From positions 1 through 27,978 of the forward strand of contig JAUXWS010000010.1 in NCBI GenBank assembly GCA_030685015.1: DNA of 27,978 bases. The letters run 5' to 3'. How positions within the stretch are numbered: the stretch's first letter is position 1; each line of letters begins with the position of its first letter. The notes under the pieces are model-generated. The model was not told the DNA's origin and did not search any database. It was given only the letters and a program-made list of their open reading frames with translations. Of the stretch, positions 10,564-27,325 are shown piece after piece. The position numbers and the translations under genes are program-made. Source of the DNA: a bacterium (GTDB lineage: Bacteria; CAIWAD01).

Positions 10564-10652
10564 GATCTTCCTGACATGAATGATGACGGCGCGGGGGCCG
10601 GACCACATCCAACCTCGGCCCCAAGGTAGCAGTTCGGGCCGGGCCGCGAGCT

Positions 10653-10661
10653 TGCTACATT
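10653..10661 (+). promoter_or_regulatory. Candidate extended -10 promoter for the purL operon
   Basis: TTGCTACATTCC (10652-10663) in the 145-bp rrf2/purL gap reads as an extended -10 element (TGC plus TACATT). It lies about 50 bases before the purL ATG and resembles the TGGTACTTTCC found at the same distance before the dipeptidase gene. A weak 6-bp inverted repeat (GTAGCA 10626-10631 and TGCTAC 10653-10658) overlaps it. No good -35 box is visible. Confidence 0.35.
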
Positions 10662-10708
10662 CCCCCTGCGGGCGTCGGACCCGCCCACAGCCAAGCAGGA
10701 AGGACGCC

Positions 10709-12949
10709 ATGCGGCAACGCGAGCCGGAGCCCACCCTTGACCATGCCCGGGAGCACGGGCTGACCGATGAGGAATTCGCCCGCATCCATGAGATCCTCGG
10801 TCGCGCCCCCAGCTGGGCGGAGCTGGGTGTCTACAGCGTGATGTGGTCCGAGCACTGCTCCTACAAGAACTCCATCGCCCGCCTCAAGACCCTGCCCCGC
10901 TCGGGCGGGCGCCTCCTGGTGGAGGCGGGGGAGGAGAACGCCGGCCTCGTGGACATCGGGGACGGCCTGGCCGTGGCCTTCAAGATCGAGAGCCACAACC
11001 ACCCCTCCGCCGTGGAGCCCTACCAGGGCGCCGCCACCGGAGTGGGCGGCATCATGCGCGACATCTTCACCATGGGCGCGCGCCCCATCTGCAGCCTCAA
11101 CTCGCTGCGCTTCCCCGCCCTCTCCCACGACACGACGCGCTGGCTGGTGGACGGCATCGTGCGCGGCATCGGCGACTACGGCAACTGCCTGGGCATTCCC
11201 ACGGTGGGCGGCGAGGTGCAGTTCGACGCCGCCTACAACGGCAATCCCCTGGTCAACGCCATGACGGTGGGCATCGTCCGCCACGACCAGACGGCCAGCG
11301 CCGTGGCGCGGGGGGCGGGCAACCCCGTCTTCCTGGTGGGCGCCTCCACCGGCCGCGACGGCATCCATGGCGCCACCTTCGCCAGCGTCGAGCTGTCGCA
11401 GGAGAGCGAGGAGAAGCGCTCCAGCGTCCAGGTGGGAGACCCCTTCTCCGAGAAGCTGCTGCTCGAGGCCACGCTGGAAATGATCCAGTCCGGCGATCTG
11501 GTGGGCATCCAGGACATGGGGGCGGCGGGGATCACCTGCTCCTGCAGCGAGATGAGCGCCAAGGGGGAGGCCGGCATCCGCATCGAGATCGAGCGGGTGC
11601 CCCAGCGCGAGAGCGGCATGACGGCCTACGAGGTGCTGCTCTCGGAATCCCAGGAGCGCATGCTGGTCGTGGTGAGCAAGGGGCGCGAGGAGACGGTGCG
11701 GCGCATCTGCGCGCGCTGGGACATCCACTGCGCCCAGATCGGGGAGGTGACGGACACGGGCCGCTTCGAAGTCTTCCACCACGGGGAGCGGGTGGTGGAC
11801 GTCCCCGCCCACTCGCTCGTCCTGGGCGGCGGCGCCCCCGTCTACCAGCGCGAATGGCGCGAGCCGGCCGACCACGCCCGGCACCGTGGGCGCGATCTGT
11901 CCACCGTGCCGCCGCCCGCCGATCTGGGCGCCGAACTGCTGGCCCTGCTGGCCCATGAGAATGTTTGCAGCCGGCGCTGGATCTACCGCCAGTACGACCA
12001 CATGATCGGCACCGCCACCGAGATCCGTCCCGGCGCCGACGCCGCCGTGGTGCGGATCAAGGGCACGGACAAGCGTCTGGCGGTGGCCGTCGACTGCAAT
12101 GCCCGCCTTGTGCAACTGGACCCGCGCCGCGGCGCCCGCGCCGCCGTGGCCGAGGCGGCCCGCAACATCGCCTGCGCCGGGGCCGTGCCGCTGGCCATCA
12201 CCAACTGCCTCAACTTCGGCAACCCCTACGATCCCGAGATCTATTGGCAGTTCCGCGAGGCGGTGGACGGCATGGGTGAGGCCTGTCGCGCCTTTGACAC
12301 GCCGGTGACGGGCGGCAACGTCAGCTTTTACAACGAAAGCCCGCACGGGGCCGTCCATCCAACTCCCGTCATCGGGATGGTGGGCCTGCTCGAGGGCGTG
12401 GAGCCCGTGCCCTCGGCCTTCCGCGGGGAGGACGAGCTGGTCCTTCTGGCGGGGAGGCCGGACAGTGCCCTGGGGGGCAGCCTCTTCCTTGAGCGGCGAC
12501 TGGGGGAACTGACCGGTGCCGTGCCCGAGGTGGACCTGGAGCACGAGTGCGCCCTGCAAGCCTTCCTGGCGGCGGCGGCGGCGGCCGGCCTGCTGCGCAG
12601 CGCCCACGACGTGTCCGAGGGCGGGCTGGCCGTCACCCTGGCCGAGGCCTGCCTGCTCGACGAGACGCGCCAGGTGGGCTGCACGGTCGACCTCGCGCCG
12701 CTGCTCGCGCCCGGACTGGACGCCCCGCGCCTCCTCTTCGCCGAGACGCCGGGGCTGGTCGTCCTCAGCGCGTTGCCCGAGCATCGGGCCGAGCTGGCCG
12801 ATCTGGCGCGGCGGCACGGCCTGCCCCTGCGCGAGATCGGCGCCACGGGCGGCGACCGCCTCCTGATCGAAGGCATGGTGGATCTGGCCGTGACGGGCAT
12901 GGCCGAAACCTGGTGGACCAGCCTGGAGCGCCGCCTGGAGCAATCATGA
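10709..12949 (+). CDS. purL: Phosphoribosylformylglycinamidine synthase, PurL subunit
   Basis: The 746-residue protein is the small form of PurL, which makes FGAM from FGAR, ATP and ammonia in purine synthesis together with PurS and the glutaminase PurQ. Signatures are 'SEHCSYKNS' near residue 50, '[20 protein letters not shown]' (about 93-112), '[17 protein letters not shown]', '[11 protein letters not shown]', '[17 protein letters not shown]', '[11 protein letters not shown]' and '[16 protein letters not shown]'. All ATP- and substrate-binding parts seem intact. AGGAAGGA lies 4 bases before the ATG at 10709, which settles the start against a longer in-frame extension. No purQ or purS gene is adjacent; instead the next gene is an envelope protein whose ATG overlaps the purL stop, an unusual context. 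Confidence 0.97.
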
Positions 12950-15900
12950 AAGCGGACCGGCCGAGCGCGGCGGAATTGCCTTCCCCCGGGGGCGGGCCCG
13001 TCGCGCCGGATGCCCCCGTGGCGGAGACGCCGCCGCCCCGCCGTCGCCGCCGCTGGCTGCGGCGCCTTTTCCTCAGCGCCCTGCTGGCCGCGGCCGTCCT
13101 GCTCCTCGGCGCCGCTGTTCTTCTGCAGGATCAGCGCGTGGGGCTCCTGCTGGGCGACCAGCTGGGCGCCGCCCTGGGCACGAGCGTCAGCCTGGACTTC
13201 GAGCGGCGCGGACTGCGCCATTGGGAGCTGCGCAACGTGGAAGTGGGCGGCGACAGCCTGGGCCGCCCGTTTCTGCAGGCCGCCCGCATCGGTTTCTACC
13301 CCCGTCCCGGCTTCATGCTTGAGAAGCGCCTGCGCCTGGACTCCCTGGTCGTGGCGGGCCTGACCCTCAACCTCAGCTGGCAGGACAGCCTGCTTCTCCC
13401 CGCCTGGCTGGATCTGGCGAACGAGGCGGGGGAGGACAGCAGCATGGCCGATCCCCTCCGCCACCTGCGCCTGTTGGCCGACAGGGGCTGGGTGGTGGAC
13501 TCCACCCGCCTCATCCTGCGCGACCTGCGCCTGACCCTGGCCGGCCATCAAGGCGGACGGCCCCTCGACCTGGCCAGTCCAACCTTCGGCCTTGACCTGC
13601 GCCTGCCCCGCCTGGAGCCGAATGCCCTGCGGGAGGTGGCCGCAGGCCGGGTGCCGCCCCAGCTGCTCGCCGGCATGCTGCTGGGCTGGTCCGGGCCATG
13701 GCAGGACGCCGCACCCGGCCTTGACCTGCGTCCCCTGCCCCTGCCGCCCGGCCTCCGGCAAGCCCTGGCCGCCACCGGCCTGGACATGGCCCGCGGCCCG
13801 GATCTGCTGCAGCAGATCGACCTGAGGCTGGACCTGGTCCGTGACACCCTGCACCTGGGCGCGAGCCTCGATCTGCGGCCGCGCGATCTCATCCTCAATT
13901 GGGAGGGCCGCGCCACGCCGCTGCCGGAGCGCTTCCGCACCTCCGTGGAACTGGCCTGGCCCGTCCGCGAGAATCCCCTGCGCGCCGACGCCGTGCTTGA
14001 TCTGCTGCTGGTGGGCGAGGGGCTGGCCACCGACGGACGCCTGGAGGCCGCCCTGCGGCAGGTCGAGGACGGCTGGGAGGCGCAGGCCGACTGGTCGCAG
14101 CGCTTGGCCCTCGACCTGGATCGCCTGGGCGAACTGGGCCGCGCTTTGGAGCTGCCGCCCCTGGGCGGCACCCTGGAGCTGGAACTGGGCGGCACCTTGC
14201 GCCTGACCCTGTCCGAGGATTTCGGCACGGGGCAGGGCGCCTGGGAGGAGGTCCTGCGCCTGACGGCGGCCCGCCTGGAGCTGCCCGCCGCGGGACTGGC
14301 CGCCGAGGGGCTGGTCCTGCGTCAGGAACTGCGCGGGGATCTCGAGCTGGCCCATCCCCTGCCGCGGCAACCCCGCCTGGAGCTGAGCGCCAGCCTGGAG
14401 CGCCTGCTCCTCGCCCAGCCCCCCTTCGACGATCCCCAAGGCCTCGAGCTGCGCCTGGTGGTGGCAGGGTCCGGTCCGCGCGACAGCCTGGAGCTGGCGG
14501 CGGACCTGTCGGTGGCATCGTGGCAGGGCGGACGCATCGACCTCAGCGCCAATGGCCGGCTGCCCTCCCTGGCGGACTGGGCGGAGGATCTGGCGGCCTG
14601 GCAGGAGCAGCCGCAGCGCTTCCAGGATCTCCCTCTGCGCCTGGACCTGGAGACGAGCCGCCTGTCCCTGGACGGCCTGGATCCATCCCTCGGCGGCGGG
14701 CTGCGCGTCGCGGCGCAGGTGGAGGCGGGACATGGCCTGCGCTTCCAACTGGAGGCGATCCCCGGCGACCTGCAACTGGACGCCGCCGGACGCCGCCTCG
14801 ACCTGCCCCTGCACCGGCTGGAGATCTCCGGCGGCGCCCGCCTGGGCGACCTGTTCGCTCCTGTCCCCTGGCCGGACACGCTGTGGGCCGAACTGCGGCC
14901 CGAGCCCCTGCCCGCGCTGCAACTGCGCCTGGGCCGGACAGCGGACGGCGCCCGCCTCAAGGTGGACTGGACCCGGCTGGACCTGCCCCGCCTGATCGCC
15001 CTGCTGCCGCTGGAGTGGCGCCCCAGCGGAGTGAGTGTCGAGGCGGCGACGGCCGGCGGCGCCGCCGATCTGCACCTGGGCCGCCAGGGCGAGCCCCTGG
15101 GTGGCGAGCTGCGCCTCACCGTGGCGGGCGGCCGCCTGCGCGTGCCGGGCTGGCTGGCCGATGATGTGGGAGGAGAGGCCGTCTGCCAGCTGGACACCCT
15201 GGGCGCCGATTGGAGCCTGGACCTGCAGCTGGCCAGCCTGCAGATGGCCGATCCCGCCTGGTCCTGGGAGGGGTTCAGCCTGGCCGGCGCGGGGCGCCTG
15301 GATCTTCCCCTCAGCCTGGCGCTGGGCGACAGCCTCTGGCTGGAGCCCGGCCGCGGCGGCGCCCTCGCCGCGGGAGGGGACCTGCGCCTGGGCCTCGCCT
15401 CGCTGGATCTGGCGGGCCTTGTCTCGGTCCGGCTGGACGACTGGCGTGGCACCAGGCCGGACCTGGTGACGATGGAGCTGGGCCTGGGCGGCCGCCGCCT
15501 GCTGCGGCCCTGGCCGGGGCTGCAAATGGGCGGGCGCGTGAACCTGACCCAGCGCCTGGAGCGCCGCCCGGACGGCCTCTACGCCGTGGTGGGCGATCTG
15601 GTATGCCGCATCGACTCCCTCGATTGGCGGCAGGAGGCCCGGGTGACGGAACTGGCGCTCGACCTGCCCTTCACCCAGGTCTTCGCCCTGGAACCGGCCT
15701 TCGCGCTGGCCAGCGACCGCCGGCGCCAGCCGGTGGATTGGAACTCCCTGCGCGGCTGGGACCGGCGGCAGCCCGATTTCGAGGCCGATCCCCAGCGCCG
15801 GGCCGCGCTGCGGCAAGGGCGGGGCTGGCCCCTGCGCATCGCCCGGGTCCGCTATGGCGAATGGTCGATGGAAGCCCTGAGCGCCGACCTGCGCATCGGG

Positions 15901-16443
15901 CAGGGCCGGCTCGACCTGCCCGAGTTCCGCTTCACGCTCTTGGGCGGAGGCGTGCGCGGCGCCATGGAGCTGGTGGGCCTGGACAACACCAGCTACGCCC
16001 TGGACTGCTCGTTGATCGGCCTGGACAGCCGCCATTTCGAGTTCGGCGGAGGGGCCGGCGGTGGCGGGGCCGCGCAGGGTCTGGTCAACGCCGTCCTGCA
16101 CCTGGAGGGCGCCGGCCTGGACCTCAGGTCGCTGGACCAGCTCCGCGGCCAGTTGCGCATGCCCGACCTGGACCGTCAGGTGACGCTCAACCTGCTGCGG
16201 GCGCTGGACGCCCAGGGCGTGGATCCCAGCATCGGCAAGGTGCGCCGCCTGCTGGAACTGCCCGGCTTCCGCTATCGCGTGGAGCGGGTCGACTTCGACG
16301 TCGCCCACGGCTTCGCCCGGCCGCGCGTGTCCTTGCGCAAGAGCCCCTTCTCGCCGCTGCCCGACGTCGCCATCCCCATGAGTCCGCTGCCCCTGGGCTT
16401 CATGATCCGCAACTTCGCCCTGGCCGAGGAGGAGACCCCGTGA
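12946..16443 (+). CDS. YdbH/AsmA-like inter-membrane lipid transport protein
   Basis: The protein has 1165 residues. A proline-rich cytoplasmic start and five Arg precede one membrane helix (about residues 41-62, '[19 protein letters not shown]'), so the rest is periplasmic. The body is made of repeated short amphipathic beta-strands with 'LDL', 'LRL' and 'LSG'-type patterns, as in the long beta-taco or groove proteins of the AsmA/TamB/YdbH group, which carry phospholipids between inner and outer membrane. The C-terminal part ('[12 protein letters not shown]', '[22 protein letters not shown]') is typical of YdbH-like (dicarboxylate-transport-type) ends. The YdbL/DUF1318-like gene directly behind it is the strongest support for YdbH rather than TamB or AsmA. 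GGAG lies six bases before the ATG, which overlaps the purL stop (ATGA). The family call is by pattern and context. Confidence 0.7.
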
Positions 16444-16958
16444 AACAGTGGCTGTGGCTGAGCCTGCTGGCCGGCGCCTGCTCCCTGCAGGCCCCCGAGA
16501 TCAAGGTGACGGGGGAACGCAGCCTGCTCGAGAAGCAGGTGCTGGGATCCTACCAGAGTTTCGGACGCGAGATGTGGATGGCGACCTCCCTGCGCGGCCT
16601 GCCCGACTCGATGGCAACGGCGGGGGAGCGGGAGAACCTGCTCAAGTCGATCCGCCGCCGGCGCTTCAACCAGGACGACCGCCTGCGGCTGCTGGCCGCC
16701 GGCCAGCTGGGCGAGAACCGGGACGGGCGCCTGGAGCTGCTGGCCGCGGATTTGCCGCCCGGATCCGAGCGCAGCCTGCTCGAACGCGTCGTGGAGCAGG
16801 ACAACCAGGACCGCGAGGTGCTGCTGGCCCGCCTGCGCCGTCTCTATCCGGAGCAGGATGCGGGCGAGCTGGCCCGCCTGTTCGCCGCCATCCAGCAGGA
16901 CGAGGCGCCCCGGGGCGCCCGCATCCAGCGGGCGGACGGCAGCTGGACGGCCAAATGA
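16440..16958 (+). CDS. YdbL/DUF1318-like lipoprotein
   Basis: The 172-residue protein starts with a short hydrophobic signal ending in 'LLAGAC', so Cys14 is probably lipidated (Ala at -3 is not the commonest residue). The region 'LAAGQLGENRDGRLELLA' followed by 'VVEQDNQDREVLLARL' and the C-terminal 'RADGSWTAK' matches the YdbL (DUF1318) pattern of 'GxxGExxdGyL', an Asn/Arg helix and a final 'dGxWxxK'. The N-terminal part after Cys ('SLQAPEIKVTGERSLLEKQ') could do the job of the small lipoprotein YnbE, which in E. coli is encoded between ydbH and ydbL. The GTG start overlaps the previous stop (GTGA) and has GAGGAGGAG five bases upstream. It is likely a periplasmic partner or chaperone of the YdbH-like protein. 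Confidence 0.7.
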   Translation: MKQWLWLSLLAGACSLQAPEIKVTGERSLLEKQVLGSYQSFGREMWMATSLRGLPDSMATAGERENLLKSIRRRRFNQDDRLRLLAAGQLGENRDGRLELLAADLPPGSERSLLERVVEQDNQDREVLLARLRRLYPEQDAGELARLFAAIQQDEAPRGARIQRADGSWTAK

Positions 16959-19900
16959 GCAGGAGTCGTCCAGTTCGGATGTTGTTCCCGCTGCTGCTGG
17001 CCGTGCTGCTGGGGGCGCTTTTCCCCGCCGCCGCCCAGCCCGACTGGCTGGGCGCCCCCGGTGGACGCAGCACCCTGGACACCCTGCTCGGTCCGCCGGG
17101 CCGGCCGCTGGGCGGGCGCGACGCCGAGCAGGATCCCGCCCTCTCCCCGGACGGCCGCTGGCTGGCCTACAGCTCTTTCGTGGATGGCAACTGGGACATC
17201 TGGCTGCGCGATCTCCAGGCCGGTCCCGGGGAGCGCCCCCGCCGCCTCACCCGCCACGTGGCGGTGGACCGCCGACCCCGGTTCGCGGCGGACGGCGCGG
17301 CCATCCTCTTCATCTCGGAACGGGAGGATGCCGCCGGCGACATCTGGGAGATCCCCCTGTCCCGCTGGCGGGGCGGGCGGACGGGGGAGGCGCGGCCCGT
17401 CCTGCGCCGACCCGGCGCCCAGGACCACCCCGTGCGCGATGGCGCCGGTGCCCTCTACTGGGACGAGGAGAGCCCGGGCGGCCGCCGCGTCATGCGCTGG
17501 GACGGCCGGACCACCGTGCGCGAGCTGGCCCGGCCCGCCTCCCTGCCCCGCCCCGGCCACGGCGGCCTTTACCTGCTCTCACTGGCGGACTCCCTGGAGA
17601 TGGTGGTGGAGTGGCTGCCGGACAGCCTGCTGGGCCAGGCCCGCCCCGCCACCCGGCGCAGCCAGGTCTGGCGTCCGTCCAGCGCCCTGCTGGACATGAT
17701 GCCGGGACCGGAGGGCGGCCTCTGGGCCATCACCCTCGAGGACGGCGCGGTGCGGCGGCCGGGCGAGGAGCTGGCCACGCCCAGCCAGCTGTGGCTGGTC
17801 AAGCCGGGAGCCGGCCAACCGCCCCGCCCCCTGCTCGAGCAGGGTCGCGCCCCACGCCAGCTTAGCGTGGCCGGGCGACGCCTGGTCTACACCGAGGACG
17901 AGCGCCCCGCCCTGCTCTGGCTGGAGGAGGCCGAAGGCCGCTTCCCGCTGGGTGGGGGCGGTTTCGATGACGCCACCGGGGGTCGTTCCGCCGGAACCTG
18001 GCTGGAGCTGGCCCGCCATCACGAGGGGCGCGAGCTGGGTCTTCCCCTGCTGCAGACGATCCAGGCGGCGTGGCCGGGCAGCCCGGCCGCCGACGAGGCA
18101 GCCCTGCGCGAGATGCGCCTGCGCATGGCCGCGGGCGGAGAACCCGGTCTCCTGCTGGCACGGCTGGACGAGCTGCGCGGCTGGATGAAGGGTCCCGAGG
18201 CGCGGGCCCGCCTGGCAGCCATGGCGCTTGAACTGGAGCTGCGCCGTCAAGCGGCCAGCGACGCGGCACCCCTGGAGGAGCTGGCCCGGCGCTGCCGGGA
18301 GGAGGGCCTGCCGGGCGCCGCCGCCGAGGCCCAGCTGGCCCGCGCCCGCTTCGAGCTGGATGCCGGCCGCCTGGAGCGCGCCCTGGGCGCCCTGCTGGAT
18401 CTGGAGACCCTGCCCGACACTCTGGCCGAGCGGGCGGACGGCCTGGCGCTCAAAGTGCGGGCCTATGAGCGGCTGGGGGAAAGCGAAGCGGCGCGAGGTG
18501 CCCTGGCCCGCCTGGCGATGGATCACGCCGACCGCCCCGAATTGCTCGCCGACTGGCTGCGGCGGGACCTCGCCGCCCTGGAGGGCCTGTCGGACGCCCG
18601 CGCCCGGCTGCGGCTGCGGGAGCGCCTGGCCGTGCTGGACGCCATTCCGCCGCTGCGCCTGGCCCTGACGGTGGAGCTGGCCCGGCGCGAGGCCGCCGCC
18701 GGACGCGACGGCCGCCTGGTGGCACGCGAGGACCTGCGTCTGGCCCTGGAGGAGGCGCCGGCCGCCCTCGTGCCCTTCCAGCGGCGCGCCTGGACCCAGG
18801 GCCAGGGCCTGCTGGCCGACCTGCGGCGCCAGGACGGGCAACTCGACGAAGCGCTGGCCGCCCTGCGCGGGGCGGACGATGCCCTGGCGGCGGTGGAGGA
18901 GCCGGCCCTGGCCGGCATCCTGCGCCTGCGGCGGATCAACTGGCTCTTGGAGCGGGCCGCCACCGCCGTGGCGGCGGCCGATTGGGAGGCGGCGGAGGCC
19001 GATGCCCGGTTGGCGCTTGCCCTCGACCCCGCCGAGTCCCGCGCCTGGCGCCTGCGGCTGGAGGCCCTCGCCCGCCTGGATCGCCTGGACGAGGTGGAGC
19101 TGATCCTGCGCCAGGGCCGCGCCAATGAGGGTCGGGGCGGCCCCCCCTTGCGGGGCGAGGCGCTGCGCCGGCGGGCGGTGGAGACCTGGGCCCTGGGCCT
19201 CCTGCTTTCCTGGCGGGCCGAATCACAACCGGCCCATCTGCCCGAATCCGACCTCCTGCTCGAGGAGGCCCTGGACCTGGACGACCGCCTCGCCGCCGCC
19301 TGCCTGACGCTCAGCTGGAATCTCAGCCGTGAGATCCATCTGGCGGCCGGCCGGCGGGGCGGACTGAAGGGCCTGCTGCGCGAACTGGGCCGCGGCCGCG
19401 AGGCGGTCAGCCGCCTCCGCCACCGCGGGGTGGGCCGCCTGGAGGATCCTGATGAGGAGTCCATGCGGGATCGGGCCATCCTGCTGGCCCAGCGCGGCTT
19501 GCGCTGGACGGATCCCGCCCGCGATCCCGACCTGGCGGCCGCCCTCGCCACCAACCTGGGCAACCTCTATTTCTCCCTGGGCGAGTTCGGGGCGCCCCAG
19601 GCCTGCCAGGCCTGGGAGCACCGGCTGTCCATCAGTCCCCGCTTCCGCCGGCCGGAGGAGCAGCTGCGCTTCCTCATCAACCTGGGCACCGCCCGGCAGT
19701 GGAGCGGCAATCTGGAGCAAGCCGCCCGCGATCTGGACAGCGCCCAGGTGCTCGCCGCCCGGCTGGGACTTCAACCCGAGCGCAGGGAACTGCTGGCCCG
19801 CCTTTCCATGCTGGCCGGCGAGCGCGGGCGGCCGGTGGAGGCACAGGCCTGGCTGCGGCAGTCCCTGGCCCTGGAGAGCGATCCCGGCCAGCGGGCCATC

Positions 19901-22900
19901 CTCTGGCGCAACCTGGCCATCATCCAGATGGAGCTGGGGGACGAGGAGGCCCCCGCCTCCCTCAACCAGGCCGCCCGCGAGGCGCAGGAGGGGCCCTGGC
20001 CCATGGAGCCGGCCCAGAACTGGCTGCGCGTGCAACTGCTGGGCCTCAGCGTGCCCCTCTGGAACTTCCCCGGCCTCTACACGGGGCAAGGCCGGCTGGA
20101 TTGGGGGGCGGCCGAGGAGGAGGCCCTCCGCCAATCCCTGCTGGACGACCTGAGCGGACGCCAGGGGGCGGTGGACCTGCGCCTGCGCGGCCTGCACGAC
20201 CGGCGGCGCCTCCTGCGCCGGCAGAAGGACGTGGACGGCATGCTCCGTCTGGATCTGGCCATCGCCCGCGAGCTGGCCGTCCTGGGCCGGTGGGAGGAGG
20301 CGGTCCGGCGCTGCGAGGAGACGGCGCGGGCGGCGCGGTCCGCCGTGCTGGGCGGGATCGAGGCGCGGGCCGTGGAAAGCGCGCTCAGCTTCCACCTGCT
20401 GGCTCGACCCACCAGTGAACAGGATGCGAAGGCCCTGGCCCGCCTCGACGCGTCGGCACCGCGGCTGCGGCATGCCATGGGGCAACTGCTGGAGGGCAGA
20501 ACCGTCCCGTTGACGGCCGAGCAACGCCTGCGCCTGGAGCTGCTGCGCATCCAGGATCTGGACGAGCAGGCGGGGCGGGCCGGTCCGGTGGACGGGCTGC
20601 TGCTGCGCTCGCGGGCCCTGCTCCTGCTGGAGGATCTGGAGGGCTGGCGGCGCAGCGCCGGCCTGACCTGGTCGAGGCGACAGCGCCTGGCCGTGGATCT
20701 GGCCTGGGCCCGCCTGCTCACCGGCACGGGGGATGCGGCGGCGGCGCGGGAGCGGCTGGCCGCCTGGCCGGTGGAGGAGCTGCCGCCCGAGGCCGCCCTG
20801 CTCACGGTCTGGGCGCGTTTGCAGTCGTCGCTGGCGCTGGGCCGCGCCGATGAGGCGGTGGAGGAGACGACCGCCCTGCGCCGGATCCTGCTCGATCTGC
20901 CGGCCGAGCCGGACGGCCTTGCCTCGGTGCGCCGCGCCGCCGTGGTCCTGGACGGCCTCGATCATCTGGCTGCCCGGGCGGGTGGATCGGCCGCCGCGGA
21001 GTCCGCCGCCTGGCGGGCCTGGTGGGAAGGGCGGCGGCTGTGGGAGCAGGCGGATCCGCCCTTTCCCGCCCAGAGCTGGACCAACGCCTGGGGCAACCTG
21101 CGCGCCGATCTGGCCGAGCGCGATCGGGCACTGGAGAAGCACTGGGCCGATCCGGGCGCGCCGGGCGAGGTCCGGCGGGCGGACTCCCTGCTCGCCGCCA
21201 CCCGCCAGGACATGCGCCAACGGGAGGATCGCCTCCGTCTCTGGTTGGAACCCACGCCGGATGCGGCGGCGGCCTGGCCCGCCTGGCGTGAGGAGGGGCT
21301 GAGCTGGGTCGGGGTGCAGGACAGCCTTGGTCCCTGGTTGCTCGCCGCCCCCGAGGTCCACCGCGTCTGCCGGACGGCCACCGTGCTGGCCGCCGATGAG
21401 GCAGCCGTGGTGGGCGGAGGCTCCCGCTTGCGGCCACCCACCGCCGCGCGCCGGGTGCCCGCCGCCGCCCTGCTCGATCCCACCGCCGCCGGCCTGGACG
21501 CCCGCGTGCTGGCCCTGGACGGCGTGCTGCGCCTCGTGCCGGGCGCCCCCCATGCCGCCTGGCTGGATTTCGACGGCCACCGCATCGCCCTGCGCGAGCT
21601 GATGGCCCTGGACCTGCCCGGCGAGCTGCTCGTCCTTGGCGAGGTGGATTGGCAATCGGCCCATCCCGCCGACTGGCGGGAAGGCTGGCTCATCCTGGAG
21701 CGCCTGCTGGCCCAGACCGGTCTGCGCCAGGCCCTTGTGCCGGAGCCAGGACGCGGCCAGCACGGCGCCCCGTTGGAGGACTTCGCCCTCACCCTGCTGG
21801 CCGACAGCCAGGTCGGCGTGCCGGAGGGCTGGTGGCGCATCGGCGCACCTCTTCTCTCGCCCACCGAGCGGCGGGCCGGGCAGCGACAGGGCATGGAGGA
21901 GCTGGTCCAGCTGGGCAACGAGTACCGGCGCCGCGGCGAGCACGACGCCGCCTGGCGTTCCTACCGGCGGGCCCTGCGCCTGGCCCTGCAGGTGGAGGAC
22001 CAGGAGAGCGCCGGCCGCCTGTTTCGGCTGGGGGCGGCCAGCGCCCTGGACGGCAGCCGCCCGGGCGAGGCCCTGGATGTGCTGCTCGAGGCCCTGGGCC
22101 GCACCGAGGGCGCCCACATCGATTGGGTTCGGTTGTCCCCCCGCTTGGTGCAACTGGCCGACCTGGCCGGTCGACCGGCCGCGGCGGACAGTCTCTGGCG
22201 CCGCCTGATCGTGGAGCAGCGGCCCCCGGCCGGCGGGGGGGAGGAAGCGGCCCCGCCCGCCCCGGCGGCGGCCGTGCGCGCCGCCTTCGAGGACCGCCTC
22301 CTGGCCCTGGAGCGGCGGGGCGGACGCGAGCGGGCGGCCGCGCTGGCCCGCGAGGCCCGTCTCATGCCAGAGGGGGAGGATCCCCGCCGCGCCCTCTTCC
22401 TCGCCCGCCTCTATCTGGACACCGAGGCGGCACGCCTGGCCTGGGACTGCCTGCAGACGCCGGAGTTGCGCTGGGCAGCCCTGGACTCGCTGGAAAGCCT
22501 CGATGCCCACGAGCTGCGCTCCATCATCGCCCTGCGCCTGGGTAATCTGACCGACGCCCGCCTCTGGATGGAGCGCGCGGCCTTGCTCGCCGCCTCCTCA
22601 GACCTGCCCGCCGGCCGTCTTGCCCTCCACCTGCAACGGCAGGCCGATCTCGCCTGGAGCCTGGGACAGTACGGGGAATGCGCCGCCTTCCTGGACCGGG
22701 CCGAGGCCGCCCTGCCCGCTGACGATCTGCAGCTGGCCCTGCTCCTGGCCAACACGCGGGGCCTGCTCGCCACCGAGCTGGAGGAGGCGGCGGCGGCGGA
22801 TGCCCACTTCGCCCGCGCCCAGGAGTTGGGCGTCGTGCTCCAGGATCCGCTCGAGTTGAGCGCCGTCTACAACAACATCTCCCGTCTCCACCAGCGCGGC

Positions 22901-24628
22901 GGACGCTGGGCGGAAGCGCTTGAGGACTGCCGGCGGGCCCTGGAGCAGGACAGCCTGTCCGGTTCCCGGCGCCGGGCCCTCGTCACGCAGCGCAACCGGG
23001 CCGCGGCGCTGCGTGGACTGCTCGCCCCCGATCTGCGCCTCCCCGAGGCCTGGACCGCCCTGCCCGAGGGCTTGCTGCGCCAGCGGCGGGCCTCGGGCGA
23101 GTTGTCGCGCCTGGAACGGGAGCTGGTCCGGGGCATGGCCGCGGCCGCCGCCCTGGGCGAGGAGCGTGAGGCCTGCCGGCTGGAACTGGAACTGGCGCTG
23201 CTCAGGCTGGATTTGGGCAATCCCGGGCAAGCCCTGCTGGCGGCGCAATCCTGCGCCGTGCGCGCCTCCCGCCTCTTCTTCCGCCGCGAGGCCCTGGAAG
23301 CAAGGCTGGCGGCCGGCCGGGCCCTCGTCCGGCTCAAACGCCTGCCGGCGGCGGAGGAGCTGCTGCAATCGGCCCTGGCGGAGGCGGAGGAGGAGACGGC
23401 CCGCCTCGCCCCCGTCCGCTTTGATCCGGGGCGTGGTCTGCTGCAGCGCCTGATCACGGACGAGCTGGTCGCCCTCTACGGGAGCGAGCGGCCCTGGGAG
23501 GCCCTGGCCGCCAGCGAGCGCGGCCGCAACCTGGGGCTGCAGGAGATGGTCGTGCGGCGCAGCGGGGACAGCCGCCTGGCCGCCCCGCGCGGCAAGGCGG
23601 ATCTGCAGAAGCTGCTGCGCGCCTCGCTCGAGCCGGACCAGGCCCTCCTGGGCTGGCACGTGGGCCGCGATAGGGCCTGGGGCTTCCTCTGGCAGTCCGG
23701 CGAACTGCGCTGCTGGCCCCTGGACGTGGCGCGGGACAGCCTGGGCATCCTGGCCGGCCTGCATCGCGGCCGCATCCTGGCCTTCCTCAGTCCGGAGGGG
23801 ACGGGCCGTCGCCTCGCCCACTGGCTGCTGCCGCCCGCATGGCAGACGGCGCCACCCCGGCGGGTCTGGCTGCTGCCCCAGGGCGAACTGCACGGCCTTG
23901 CCTTCGAAAGCCTGGTCCTGGCCGACGGCCGCTGGTGGGGCGAGACCACCGCCATCTGCCGGTCGGGCAGCCTGGCCGAGTTGGCCTACAGCGCCGGTCT
24001 GCCCGGCGGGACGAGTCCGGGGGCGGTGTGGAGCGACCCCCACGTGCCGGGGATGGACGCCCTGGAGTACACGGCCCTCGAGGTGGCCGAACTTGGACGG
24101 CTGCATCCCGCCGCCCGGCTGGCCGTGGGTGCGAAGGCCACTCCGGCGGACCTGCGGGGGGACGGCGCGGCCCGCCGTTTCCGGCATTTCGCCTGCCACG
24201 CCGTGCACGACCCGCGCAGCCCGGCTGAAAGCGCCTTGCTGCTCAGTCCCGCCCCGGGCAGCGACGGCCGCCTGGCCGCCCCCACCATCGCCGCCCTGGA
24301 CCTGCCGGCGGGCCTGACCGTCCTCTCCGCCTGCGAGACGGCCCTGGGCCGGGGCGGGGAGGAGGCGAGCGCCGGCCTGCCCCGCGCTTTCATGGCGGCG
24401 GGTTCACGCGGGGTGTTGGCCAGCTTGTGGAAAGTGGACGATCTCTCCACCGCCGTGCTGGTCAAGCATCTTTACCGGGGACTGGCGGAGGGTCGACCGG
24501 CCGATCTTGCCCTGCAGGAGGCCCAGCAGGCCGTGCGGCGCTGGGTGCATCCCCATCCCGCCCACTGGGCGGCCTTCTGCCTGACGGGACAGCCGCTGCC
24601 TGAACCACGGGTCGTCACTGGTCGATAA
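16955..24628 (+). CDS. Giant exported TolB-propeller/TPR/CHAT-domain putative protease
   Basis: The protein has 2557 residues. A Sec signal peptide (about 1-28, 'MLFPLLLAVLLGALFPAAA') is followed by TolB/PD40-like propeller blades (about 55-330; 'DPALSPDGRWLAYSSFVDG', 'AAILFISER'), helical TPR-like repeats (about 360-1400; clear at 855-1020), a degenerate CHAT domain (about 1460-1640), a second TPR-like array (about 1650-2200; 'LGNEYRRRGEHDAAWRSYRR') and a C-terminal CHAT domain (about 2220-2550). CHAT domains are caspase/separase-like cysteine proteases; here 'HFACHAVHD' supplies His2415 and 'LSACETALG' Cys2460, then 'GVLASLWKVDD' and a typical 'ALQEAQQAV' tail. The signal peptide suggests a periplasmic or surface place. 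Its ATG overlaps the YdbL-like stop (ATGA), so it is translated with the lipid-transport genes. Substrate and trigger are unknown. Confidence 0.9.
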   Translation: MSRSRPVRMLFPLLLAVLLGALFPAAAQPDWLGAPGGRSTLDTLLGPPGRPLGGRDAEQDPALSPDGRWLAYSSFVDGNWDIWLRDLQAGPGERPRRLTRHVAVDRRPRFAADGAAILFISEREDAAGDIWEIPLSRWRGGRTGEARPVLRRPGAQDHPVRDGAGALYWDEESPGGRRVMRWDGRTTVRELARPASLPRPGHGGLYLLSLADSLEMVVEWLPDSLLGQARPATRRSQVWRPSSALLDMMPGPEGGLWAITLEDGAVRRPGEELATPSQLWLVKPGAGQPPRPLLEQGRAPRQLSVAGRRLVYTEDERPALLWLEEAEGRFPLGGGGFDDATGGRSAGTWLELARHHEGRELGLPLLQTIQAAWPGSPAADEAALREMRLRMAAGGEPGLLLARLDELRGWMKGPEARARLAAMALELELRRQAASDAAPLEELARRCREEGLPGAAAEAQLARARFELDAGRLERALGALLDLETLPDTLAERADGLALKVRAYERLGESEAARGALARLAMDHADRPELLADWLRRDLAALEGLSDARARLRLRERLAVLDAIPPLRLALTVELARREAAAGRDGRLVAREDLRLALEEAPAALVPFQRRAWTQGQGLLADLRRQDGQLDEALAALRGADDALAAVEEPALAGILRLRRINWLLERAATAVAAADWEAAEADARLALALDPAESRAWRLRLEALARLDRLDEVELILRQGRANEGRGGPPLRGEALRRRAVETWALGLLLSWRAESQPAHLPESDLLLEEALDLDDRLAAACLTLSWNLSREIHLAAGRRGGLKGLLRELGRGREAVSRLRHRGVGRLEDPDEESMRDRAILLAQRGLRWTDPARDPDLAAALATNLGNLYFSLGEFGAPQACQAWEHRLSISPRFRRPEEQLRFLINLGTARQWSGNLEQAARDLDSAQVLAARLGLQPERRELLARLSMLAGERGRPVEAQAWLRQSLALESDPGQRAILWRNLAIIQMELGDEEAPASLNQAAREAQEGPWPMEPAQNWLRVQLLGLSVPLWNFPGLYTGQGRLDWGAAEEEALRQSLLDDLSGRQGAVDLRLRGLHDRRRLLRRQKDVDGMLRLDLAIARELAVLGRWEEAVRRCEETARAARSAVLGGIEARAVESALSFHLLARPTSEQDAKALARLDASAPRLRHAMGQLLEGRTVPLTAEQRLRLELLRIQDLDEQAGRAGPVDGLLLRSRALLLLEDLEGWRRSAGLTWSRRQRLAVDLAWARLLTGTGDAAAARERLAAWPVEELPPEAALLTVWARLQSSLALGRADEAVEETTALRRILLDLPAEPDGLASVRRAAVVLDGLDHLAARAGGSAAAESAAWRAWWEGRRLWEQADPPFPAQSWTNAWGNLRADLAERDRALEKHWADPGAPGEVRRADSLLAATRQDMRQREDRLRLWLEPTPDAAAAWPAWREEGLSWVGVQDSLGPWLLAAPEVHRVCRTATVLAADEAAVVGGGSRLRPPTAARRVPAAALLDPTAAGLDARVLALDGVLRLVPGAPHAAWLDFDGHRIALRELMALDLPGELLVLGEVDWQSAHPADWREGWLILERLLAQTGLRQALVPEPGRGQHGAPLEDFALTLLADSQVGVPEGWWRIGAPLLSPTERRAGQRQGMEELVQLGNEYRRRGEHDAAWRSYRRALRLALQVEDQESAGRLFRLGAASALDGSRPGEALDVLLEALGRTEGAHIDWVRLSPRLVQLADLAGRPAAADSLWRRLIVEQRPPAGGGEEAAPPAPAAAVRAAFEDRLLALERRGGRERAAALAREARLMPEGEDPRRALFLARLYLDTEAARLAWDCLQTPELRWAALDSLESLDAHELRSIIALRLGNLTDARLWMERAALLAASSDLPAGRLALHLQRQADLAWSLGQYGECAAFLDRAEAALPADDLQLALLLANTRGLLATELEEAAAADAHFARAQELGVVLQDPLELSAVYNNISRLHQRGGRWAEALEDCRRALEQDSLSGSRRRALVTQRNRAAALRGLLAPDLRLPEAWTALPEGLLRQRRASGELSRLERELVRGMAAAAALGEEREACRLELELALLRLDLGNPGQALLAAQSCAVRASRLFFRREALEARLAAGRALVRLKRLPAAEELLQSALAEAEEETARLAPVRFDPGRGLLQRLITDELVALYGSERPWEALAASERGRNLGLQEMVVRRSGDSRLAAPRGKADLQKLLRASLEPDQALLGWHVGRDRAWGFLWQSGELRCWPLDVARDSLGILAGLHRGRILAFLSPEGTGRRLAHWLLPPAWQTAPPRRVWLLPQGELHGLAFESLVLADGRWWGETTAICRSGSLAELAYSAGLPGGTSPGAVWSDPHVPGMDALEYTALEVAELGRLHPAARLAVGAKATPADLRGDGAARRFRHFACHAVHDPRSPAESALLLSPAPGSDGRLAAPTIAALDLPAGLTVLSACETALGRGGEEASAGLPRAFMAAGSRGVLASLWKVDDLSTAVLVKHLYRGLAEGRPADLALQEAQQAVRRWVHPHPAHWAAFCLTGQPLPEPRVVTGR

Positions 24629-24652: not shown

Positions 24653-27325
24653 ATGTTCACGCGCCTGATCAAGCTGCTCGCCATGTTGCCCGTTCCCGTG
24701 CCCGCCATGCGCCAGGGTCTGGCCTGCGGCGTGCTGGGGCTAGTCTACCTGCGGCGCACGGAGCGGCTGGGGGAGGTGGCCACCCGCCTCCTGCGCGTGC
24801 TGGAGTACCGCGGCTACGATTCCACCGGCGGCGCCTTCCAGGACGGGGACCGTGTCACCCTGCTCAAGGCGCCGGGCGCCCCCAGCGAGATCTGCGCCGC
24901 CCTGGGCATGCCCCAGCAGGCCGGGCACATCTTCTGCGGCCAGGTGCGCTGGGCGACCTACGGGGCGGTGGACGAGCTGAACGCCCAGCCCCACGTCGTG
25001 CGTTGCCGGCGGCACATCTACGGCGCCCACAACGGCAACATCAGCAACAGCCCCCAACTCAAGGCGTGGCTGACCGAGCGTGGCCACGATGTGCGATCCG
25101 ACAACGACGGCGAGATGCTCGTCCACCTGATCGAGCACATCTACGACGATGAGCTGGCCAGCGGACGCCATGGCTCGCCGGAGGCGGCCATGAGGCAGGC
25201 CGTGGTGACGGCGGCGGGCCGGGTGGAAGGCGCCTACGCCGCCATCATCGTCATCCCGGAGACGGGCACCAGCTACGCCATCAAGGCGGGGTCCAGCCTT
25301 TACGCCGGCATCGGCGTGCTGGACGAGGCGGAGCCCAATCCTTTCTTCCTGGCGTCAAGCGACCTCACCGCCGTCCTGGGGCAGACCCGCATGATCCTGC
25401 CCCTGCGCCGTGGGCAGTTCGTCGAGTACCGCGCCGACTCCTACCAGGTCTACGCCTACGAGGAGATGGAGGTGGAGGACCCGCTACGCGGCCACGTGGT
25501 CCTCCAGCCGGGCGATCCCGTCGAGGTGACGCCGCGCTTCAGCCGGCTGCGCGTGGACGACATCGGCTTGCGGCCCGGCTTCACCTGGTTCATGGAGCAG
25601 GAGATCGCCGACGAGGTGGAGAGCGCCCGCCGCCTGGTGCGCTACCTGTCCAACGGCAGCCCGCGCCTCCAGCTTTTCCGCAGCGCCGGCGCCTCGGGCC
25701 GCCGCGTCATGAGCGCGGTGGAGGATGAGCTGATGGCCCTGACCGACGCCCCCACGCCGGAGGCCCTGCTTGATTCCTGCACCGGTCTCTTCGACAACGA
25801 CGCCCTCTGGGAGCTGTTCAACGAGCTGCCCGCCGAGATCCGCTCCGATCCCGCCTTCTACAGCGACGCCGGACCGCATCTGGCCTGGGCCCGGGAGCAT
25901 TTCCACGACCACCCGCGGCGGGAGCTGCTCCTCCTGGCCGATCTCTACCACGAGAACGACGAGATCAACGAGCTGACCACCCAGCTCTACCGCTTCGTCG
26001 AGGAGGCGCGGCGCACCCTCGAGCAGGGTGGCCAGATCTACGCCGTCTGCTCGGGGACCAGCTACAACGCGGCCCGCACCGGCGCCATGTTCTTCAATGA
26101 CCTGTGCGGCGTGAAGTTCGTGCCCCTGCTGCCGGGCGAGTATCGCAGCCAATACAACCACTCGATCACCGACCAGGATCTGCTGGTGACCATCTCCCAG
26201 AGCGGGGAGACGAAGGACGTGATCGACGTGGTGGACGACCTCAAGCACAAGGCGCCGCTGCTCAAGCACATCTGCGTGGTGAACAACCTCAACTCCACCC
26301 TCGCCCAGGAGAAGGCGGACATCGCCATCCCGCTGCGCTGCGGACCGGAGATCGCCGTGCCGGCGACCAAGAGCTTCATCAACCAGCTCACCATGCTCTA
26401 CGGCATGGCCCTCTACCTGGCGGCGGCGCGGGGGGGACGCGTGCGCGGCTCGGCCACGGGCTTCGAGGCCATCCTGGGCCGCCGCGAGCGCCTGGAGCAG
26501 ATTCCCGACCTGCTGGCGCGCACCTTGAGCGAGACGGCCGCCACGGTGGAGGAGGCCGCCGCCGTGCTCTACCAGGCCCCCAGCCTGCACATCCTGGCCA
26601 CCCGCATGTGGGGGGTGGCCCGCGAGGGGGCGCTCAAGATCCGCGAAGTCGTGCTCAACCATGCCGAGGGGATCGAGGCCACCGAGTTCAAGCACGGCCC
26701 CAACACCATCCTGGGCCTCAACACGGGCTTCGGCCTGGACCAGATCAAGGACTACACCCGCGCCCTGGGTGGTGAACTGGCCCGGCAGGTGACGCGGGAC
26801 GGCCTCGCCACCGATCCGGCGGCGCTGGCCGGCTGGTTGGAGCAGCTGGCCGGGCGGATCTTCCCACCGGTGGCGGCCAAGAACGGATCGGCCTGCCCCG
26901 CGGCGCTCTCCTCCACCTCCCACAACCAGGACGGCCAGGGCGTCTTCGCCAGCCTCTACCGGGACTACCCGCTCATCTACGTGACAGGTCCGGGCAAGCG
27001 GGACGTGGAGCTGACCATCACCCAGATCAACACGCACAAGATCCGCGGCGCCATGAGCATCGTCATCGCCGAGGAGGACGAGCACCTGCGCCGCGCCGCC
27101 TGCGAGCCGCCCATGGGGCATCGCGACTACAAGGGCATTTTCATCGCCCTGCCCCCCTCGGGCGACCTCATCACCACCACTTTCACCTCCATCCTGGTCC
27201 TCCAGCGGCTTGCCCTGCGCATGTGCGAGATGAAGATGGCCCTGCTCGACGGCCTGGGGGTGAGGGACCACGGCGTGCATCCCGACGCCCCCAAGAACGT
27301 CTCGAAGAGCATCACCGTGGACTGA
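24653..27325 (+). CDS. Divergent GlmS-like glutamine amidotransferase/SIS protein
   Basis: The 890-residue protein has the GlmS order: class II glutaminase (about 25-300), SIS-1 (about 460-620) and SIS-2 (about 640-890), against about 610 residues in E. coli GlmS, which makes glucosamine-6-phosphate from fructose-6-phosphate and glutamine. Conserved are 'LEYRGYDSTG', 'HNGNIS', 'SGTSYNA', 'SQSGET', 'ATKSF', 'FKHGP' and the C-terminal 'PKNVSKSITVD'. Odd points: the nucleophile Cys is residue 25 instead of 2; 'RWATHG' reads RWATYG and 'NAHPH' reads NAQPH, which is PurF-like; there are extra stretches of about 100 residues before SIS-1 and after 'KHGP'. AAGGAGGA six bases before the ATG at 24653 strongly fixes this start, 24 bases after the CHAT gene. 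It could be the cell's GlmS or a relative with another sugar substrate. Confidence 0.85.
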   Translation: MFTRLIKLLAMLPVPVPAMRQGLACGVLGLVYLRRTERLGEVATRLLRVLEYRGYDSTGGAFQDGDRVTLLKAPGAPSEICAALGMPQQAGHIFCGQVRWATYGAVDELNAQPHVVRCRRHIYGAHNGNISNSPQLKAWLTERGHDVRSDNDGEMLVHLIEHIYDDELASGRHGSPEAAMRQAVVTAAGRVEGAYAAIIVIPETGTSYAIKAGSSLYAGIGVLDEAEPNPFFLASSDLTAVLGQTRMILPLRRGQFVEYRADSYQVYAYEEMEVEDPLRGHVVLQPGDPVEVTPRFSRLRVDDIGLRPGFTWFMEQEIADEVESARRLVRYLSNGSPRLQLFRSAGASGRRVMSAVEDELMALTDAPTPEALLDSCTGLFDNDALWELFNELPAEIRSDPAFYSDAGPHLAWAREHFHDHPRRELLLLADLYHENDEINELTTQLYRFVEEARRTLEQGGQIYAVCSGTSYNAARTGAMFFNDLCGVKFVPLLPGEYRSQYNHSITDQDLLVTISQSGETKDVIDVVDDLKHKAPLLKHICVVNNLNSTLAQEKADIAIPLRCGPEIAVPATKSFINQLTMLYGMALYLAAARGGRVRGSATGFEAILGRRERLEQIPDLLARTLSETAATVEEAAAVLYQAPSLHILATRMWGVAREGALKIREVVLNHAEGIEATEFKHGPNTILGLNTGFGLDQIKDYTRALGGELARQVTRDGLATDPAALAGWLEQLAGRIFPPVAAKNGSACPAALSSTSHNQDGQGVFASLYRDYPLIYVTGPGKRDVELTITQINTHKIRGAMSIVIAEEDEHLRRAACEPPMGHRDYKGIFIALPPSGDLITTTFTSILVLQRLALRMCEMKMALLDGLGVRDHGVHPDAPKNVSKSITVD

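Follow-up and report, generated by a model that had tools for sequence, protein, structure and literature searches.

A giant, predicted exported CHAT protein encoded with an AsmA-superfamily protein and a YdbL-type lipoprotein in several bacterial phyla

Results

Organization of the locus

The window, by which we mean the whole stretch of DNA analyzed, is a whole contig of 27,978 bases from a draft genome of 3.6 Mb. It carries an operon in the order AsmA-superfamily gene, YdbL-like (DUF1318) lipoprotein gene and CHAT gene, with products of 1165, 172 and 2557 aa; the last we call the giant. The flanking genes are purL (window 10580-12949) and a glmS-type gene (window 24653-27325). The features are as follows.

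12946-12949: ATGA overlap of purL and the AsmA-like gene
12946..16443, + strand: AsmA-superfamily (DUF748/YhdP/AsmA-type) protein, 1165 aa, with a predicted N-terminal inner-membrane anchor and then a predicted beta-rich periplasmic part
15493..16440, + strand: C-terminal part of the AsmA-like protein (~residues 850-1165), found together with YdbL-subfamily genes and the giant
16440..16443, + strand: GTGA start/stop overlap of the AsmA-like gene and ydbL
16440..16958, + strand: YdbL-type (DUF1318) lipoprotein, 172 aa
16479..16481, + strand: codon of the subfamily-conserved lipobox Cys14
16515..16553, + strand: subfamily signature ERSLLEKQVLGSY, residues 26-38
16955..16958, + strand: ATGA start/stop overlap of ydbL and the CHAT gene
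16955..24628, + strand: giant, predicted exported PD40 propeller / TPR / pseudo-CHAT / TPR / CHAT protein, 2557 aa
16955..17038, + strand: signal-peptide-like N-terminus of the cleavable type
17102..17974, + strand: PD40 (TolB-like) beta-propeller, ~residues 50-340
21179..21847, + strand: degenerate middle CHAT domain, ~residues 1409-1631, without a His-Cys dyad
23615..24589, + strand: C-terminal CHAT domain, residues 2221-2545
24197..24199, + strand: predicted catalytic His2415
24332..24334, + strand: predicted catalytic Cys2460

A first-pass annotation of this DNA had claimed that the three genes are joined by 4-base overlaps (GTGA at 16440, ATGA at 16955), and direct reading of the sequence bears this out. 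The export or membrane signals that it had assigned to all three products were also recovered: an N-terminal helix in the AsmA-like protein, a lipobox Cys in the YdbL-like protein and a cleavable-type signal peptide in the CHAT protein. The further ATGA overlap with purL at 12946, read in the same way, is present here but is not general, and in locus L044, from the same genus, purL ends before the ATG of the AsmA gene. Upstream purL is found in L037 as well as L044, and L004 has a glmS-type gene after the giant. A 4-base ydbL/CHAT overlap (a start at -4) is available in about 17 of 48 giant-gene loci from several phyla, with Nitrotoga, Geobacter and Mcinerneyibacterium among them; hence, this coupling is more than chance.

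The first gene encodes a putative AsmA-superfamily protein

A Pfam search with the 1165-aa protein itself matched no family. Its relatives (n=36) gave 19 matches to DUF748, 15 to AsmA and 9 to YhdP, which makes the protein, through these relatives, a predicted member of the AsmA superfamily. A helix is predicted at residues 35-59, after a basic stretch, with long strands beyond it (model pLDDT 65). That low-confidence model did not establish an AsmA fold by structure search: the top rows (ApoB100, TonB-dependent receptors and LptD) were not discriminating. The first-pass annotation had called the protein YdbH-like. Its membership of the wider AsmA/YdbH group holds through the relatives, but the specific identity was not supported, with no detectable similarity to E. 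coli YdbH: hhalign in local mode returned 3% probability, and the YdbH model was unmatched.

C-terminal residues 850-1165 are 45% identical to their counterpart in genome G003. Of 27 genomes that carry the YdbL subfamily or the giant, 26 contain this C-terminal part, whether or not the genes are linked. Only the generic N-terminal AsmA part was matched in the 35 comparison genomes, save one that had the C-terminal part (1/35; p 3e-15). Since the lipoprotein YnbE is an interaction partner of YdbH in E. coli, co-conservation of the AsmA C-terminus and a partner lipoprotein would fit a contact at that end of the protein.

The second gene encodes a YdbL-type protein that is itself a predicted lipoprotein

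The 172-aa protein falls just below the Pfam cut-off for DUF1318 (PF07027; E 1.6e-5, 25.8 bits against 27), and its orthologues in G001, G002, G027 and G049 exceed it. A profile match to E. coli YdbL was obtained at E 3.8e-7, and the predicted structure, confident over residues 60-172, matches the E. coli YdbL crystal structure 28oj (E 3.4e-4, TM 0.79 over the target). Members of the subfamily share the lipobox Cys and, just past it, the signature E[RK][ST]xLExQ[VI]LG. The residue at lipobox position +2 was S, T, G or K in all 47 members with a readable lipobox and was never Asp. The E. coli Lol rule relates this residue to membrane sorting, and by that rule the YdbL-type lipoprotein is predicted to reside in the outer membrane. 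We do not claim a YnbE-YdbL fusion because the profile comparison (5% probability) aligned the signal/lipobox alone.

The giant carries two CHAT domains

The CHAT match of the giant is strong (PF12770; E 1.6e-46, 159.5 bits against a cut-off of 24), and PD40 and TPR were matched as well. Profile-profile comparison revealed a second CHAT domain in the middle of the protein at E 2e-30, with control segments at 0.3 to 0.6, and Pfam matches to the middle domain were obtained in relatives G124, G324, G108 and G261. The His-Cys dyad, including His2415 and Cys2460, is kept in 66 of 68 aligned C-terminal domains, a count in which some sequences appear twice. The exceptions are L059, which has Lys instead of His, and the C-terminal copy of G108 (L178), which has neither residue. 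In the middle domain, the dyad is kept in none of the 10 copies aligned at both sites. We conclude, on sequence grounds, that the two CHAT domains form a putative pseudoprotease-protease arrangement.

Several variants were observed. The giant at L039:8861-14308 (G049) ends after the dead middle CHAT domain, and a separate 488-aa CHAT protein is encoded on another contig of the same genome. Mcinerneyibacteriota-type loci (L071, L082 and L086) encode a giant with a lipoprotein-type signal and a shorter AsmA protein (~860 aa). Further CHAT proteins are present in the G108 genome (L178), and the window's own genome has a second, smaller one in a frame of 765 aa (G000:C20:2690-3121).

The three genes are co-inherited across phyla

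Relatives of the operon, isolates included, were found in KSB1, Calditrichota, Nitrospirota, Desulfobacterota, Pseudomonadota and Mcinerneyibacteriota, and the gene order is kept across phyla. A scan with the YdbL alignment, in which CHAT was not part of the query, yielded 80 loci from KSB1, Calditrichota, Nitrospira, Nitrotoga, Magnetococcales, Chromatiaceae, Desulfobacterota, Geobacter/Geomonas and Mcinerneyibacteriota. In 66 of them the giant lay downstream, on the same strand; if only the 76 loci with 600 bases or more of room are considered, the number is again 66. Since linked genes supplied the query, this linkage rate is biased. Thus the neighborhood on which the first-pass annotation had staked its proposal, a CHAT gene adjoining ydbL- and AsmA-type genes in relatives, recurs in several phyla.

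Do the genes also occur together when they are not neighbors? We asked this of 386 genomes, using the N-terminal 1400 aa of the giant (found in 23 genomes, with three short PD40-only matches set aside) and the YdbL subfamily at a threshold of E < 1e-45 (found in 24). Both the signature lipoprotein and the giant were present in 22 genomes, the giant alone in 1 (G358), YdbL alone in 2 and neither in 361. Fisher's test on these counts, a co-occurrence statistic of the kind that the first-pass annotation had suggested as a check, gave p 2e-32 by genome and p 3e-22 by family, where family totals are approximate; the test is not fully independent because query alignments A5 and A4 contain members of the sample. 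The genes were adjacent in 12 of the 22 genomes with both and unlinked in 10. As for the two genomes with YdbL and no giant match, the contig of G002 ends right after ydbL, and G372 has a diverged 2047-aa CHAT protein. DUF1318 genomes without the subfamily signature had no giant in this sample.

We obtained a similar result in the class of the distant carrier G027 (80 genomes). Both genes were present in the same 5 genomes, adjacent in all 5, and in none of the other 75 (p 4e-8), a test that is independent for 4 of the 5 carriers. One carrier, G450, is from a different genus, and the ten other members of that genus in the sample lack both genes. Because the three parts co-occur even when unlinked, a shared envelope function, and with it a functional link of AsmA, YdbL and the giant, is well supported. 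We consider it very likely that the three proteins work together.

G109 and G245, from one family, encode AsmA and YdbL-type proteins but no giant. The giant is therefore dispensable in those genomes, which suggests a core made up of the AsmA-YdbL bridge pair, with the giant as a further layer on top.

Accessory genes

Directly after the giant, roughly two dozen loci (Nitrospira, Nitrotoga, Geobacter, Desulfobacterota and Chromatiaceae) encode an SH3 protein and an M48 metallopeptidase, both exported; L113:18880-20289 and L065:18420-19963 are examples, with some 20 more loci. An M48 gene lies upstream of the AsmA gene in three Magnetococcales loci. In KSB1, a PMT_2-type glycosyltransferase gene sits between ydbL and the giant (L056:5683-7221, L092:10637-12196). 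The SH3/M48 genes of other phyla, the middle pseudo-CHAT domain and the lipoprotein nature of the YdbL protein itself are additions to the first-pass annotation.

Discussion

The closest known counterpart is the lipid-homeostasis locus ydbH-ynbE-ydbL of E. coli (PMC8593681), in which YdbH contacts the lipoprotein YnbE (PMC12977461). Both loci begin with an AsmA-superfamily gene that runs by a 4-base overlap into the gene of an outer-membrane lipoprotein, in our case a predicted one (ydbH/ynbE overlap by 4 bases as well), both include a DUF1318 protein in the operon, and the YdbL fold is matched. However, YnbE is missing here and the DUF1318 protein itself is a predicted lipoprotein, unlike E. 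coli YdbL; sequence comparison does not identify the AsmA protein as YdbH; and a giant CHAT protein is added, together with SH3/M48 in many phyla.

We propose that the AsmA protein and the lipoprotein form a trans-envelope bridge, and that the giant is its dedicated caspase-like regulator or quality-control protease in the periplasm; we give this about an even chance of being the full explanation. The AsmA-like protein would be anchored in the inner membrane and extend a lipid-binding groove across the periplasm. Its C-terminal part would meet the outer-membrane YdbL (DUF1318) lipoprotein, as YdbH meets YnbE in E. coli. With its propeller and TPR arrays the giant may dock onto the bridge. Its C-terminal CHAT domain would act as a conditional cysteine protease, and the dead CHAT domain in the middle would have a regulatory or binding role. 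We envisage that the giant exerts quality control, or carries out regulated cleavage, at the bridge, and that in many phyla it does so together with the M48 metallopeptidase encoded in the cluster. Phospholipid transport by the AsmA part is somewhat probable; cleavage of a protein of this pathway by the CHAT domain is rather less than an even prospect.

Might the giant instead be a non-proteolytic scaffold, in which propeller and TPR organize the bridge and the CHAT domains are binding modules? The middle CHAT domain is dead in every copy aligned at both sites (10/10), and repeat scaffold makes up most of the protein. However, retention of His and Cys in 66 of 68 C-terminal domains across phyla is not required by scaffolding alone, and we regard this alternative as unlikely.

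Ranking next, and also improbable, is the idea that the AsmA-like protein moves the YdbL-type lipoprotein, and perhaps the giant too, to the outer membrane or surface rather than phospholipids, which would make the giant a cargo or effector at the surface or in the periplasm. The AsmA-like protein GspN sets a precedent: Acinetobacter needs it to bring lipoproteins to the cell surface, by way of a motif just after the lipobox (PMC12802150). A conserved motif stands in the same place in members of the YdbL subfamily, and the giants of Mcinerneyibacteriota (L071, L082 and L086) are predicted lipoproteins. GspN of type II secretion and the protein described here would be alike as AsmA-like proteins working with lipoproteins. 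They differ in that our locus has no secretion genes nearby, and type II secretion genes do not recur beside the operon in relatives. The partner here is DUF1318, which points to a YdbH-type phospholipid locus.

TPR-CHAT effectors are known from immunity (Craspase; PMC9935389). Like Csx29 of Craspase, the giant has a TPR array followed by a caspase-like CHAT domain with a His-Cys dyad, and its distribution within a family is patchy. We wondered if it might be an envelope-damage or phage-defense effector that senses bridge loss and triggers cell death. Unlike Craspase, the giant is predicted to be exported, and it has a TolB-like propeller, two CHAT domains and envelope partners. Cas7-11 is not at the locus, whose neighbors are purL, AsmA-like, ydbL-like and glmS genes, and no Cas genes recur in relatives. 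The operon sits among housekeeping genes (purL, glmS), mobile or defense genes do not recur beside it in relatives, and the signal peptides place the giant outside the cytoplasm. PADLOC gave just a weak local match to BovA (E 3e-4), and we rejected assignment to a defense system. We judge this alternative very improbable. Least credible of all is that the genes are neighbors through common ancestry or common export needs and have no joint function: there are related carriers, and several families contribute more than one count, but against it stand the family-level Fisher p of 3e-22, the presence of the genes together even when unlinked, and the 5/5 versus 0/75 split within one class.

A trans-envelope bridge with a periplasmic caspase-like protease, the reading we prefer, recalls the protease BepA, in which a TPR part is joined to an M48 domain and which serves outer-membrane quality control (PMC8423444, PMC7950410). 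An exported M48 peptidase is encoded beside the operon in many relatives. In contrast to BepA, the main candidate protease here is the CHAT cysteine protease, and the M48 gene is separate and not in the window. Our literature search, outside which many subscription papers lay, found no link of CHAT to AsmA, DUF1318 or a PD40 periplasmic protein. We read the locus as a variant of the AsmA/YdbL envelope systems that has a fair chance of embodying a new mode of control. More tentatively still, a dedicated extracytoplasmic caspase-like protease system, with active and dead CHAT domains on a propeller/TPR scaffold, might control an AsmA-type lipid bridge via an outer-membrane DUF1318 lipoprotein. 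This would amount to regulated proteolysis of intermembrane lipid transport, widespread in diderm phyla.

Which further factors AsmA-family lipid bridges need has been stated as an open question (PMC12977461). The giant is a named candidate partner for such bridges, conserved over several phyla that include culturable Geomonas and Geobacter strains. Our proposal predicts that a caspase-type protease acts outside the cytoplasm on bacterial envelope assembly, and it offers a concrete account of how DUF1318 may act where YnbE is missing. Co-inheritance of the three genes points to an undescribed system that would build or police the outer membrane across distantly related Gram-negative-type bacteria.
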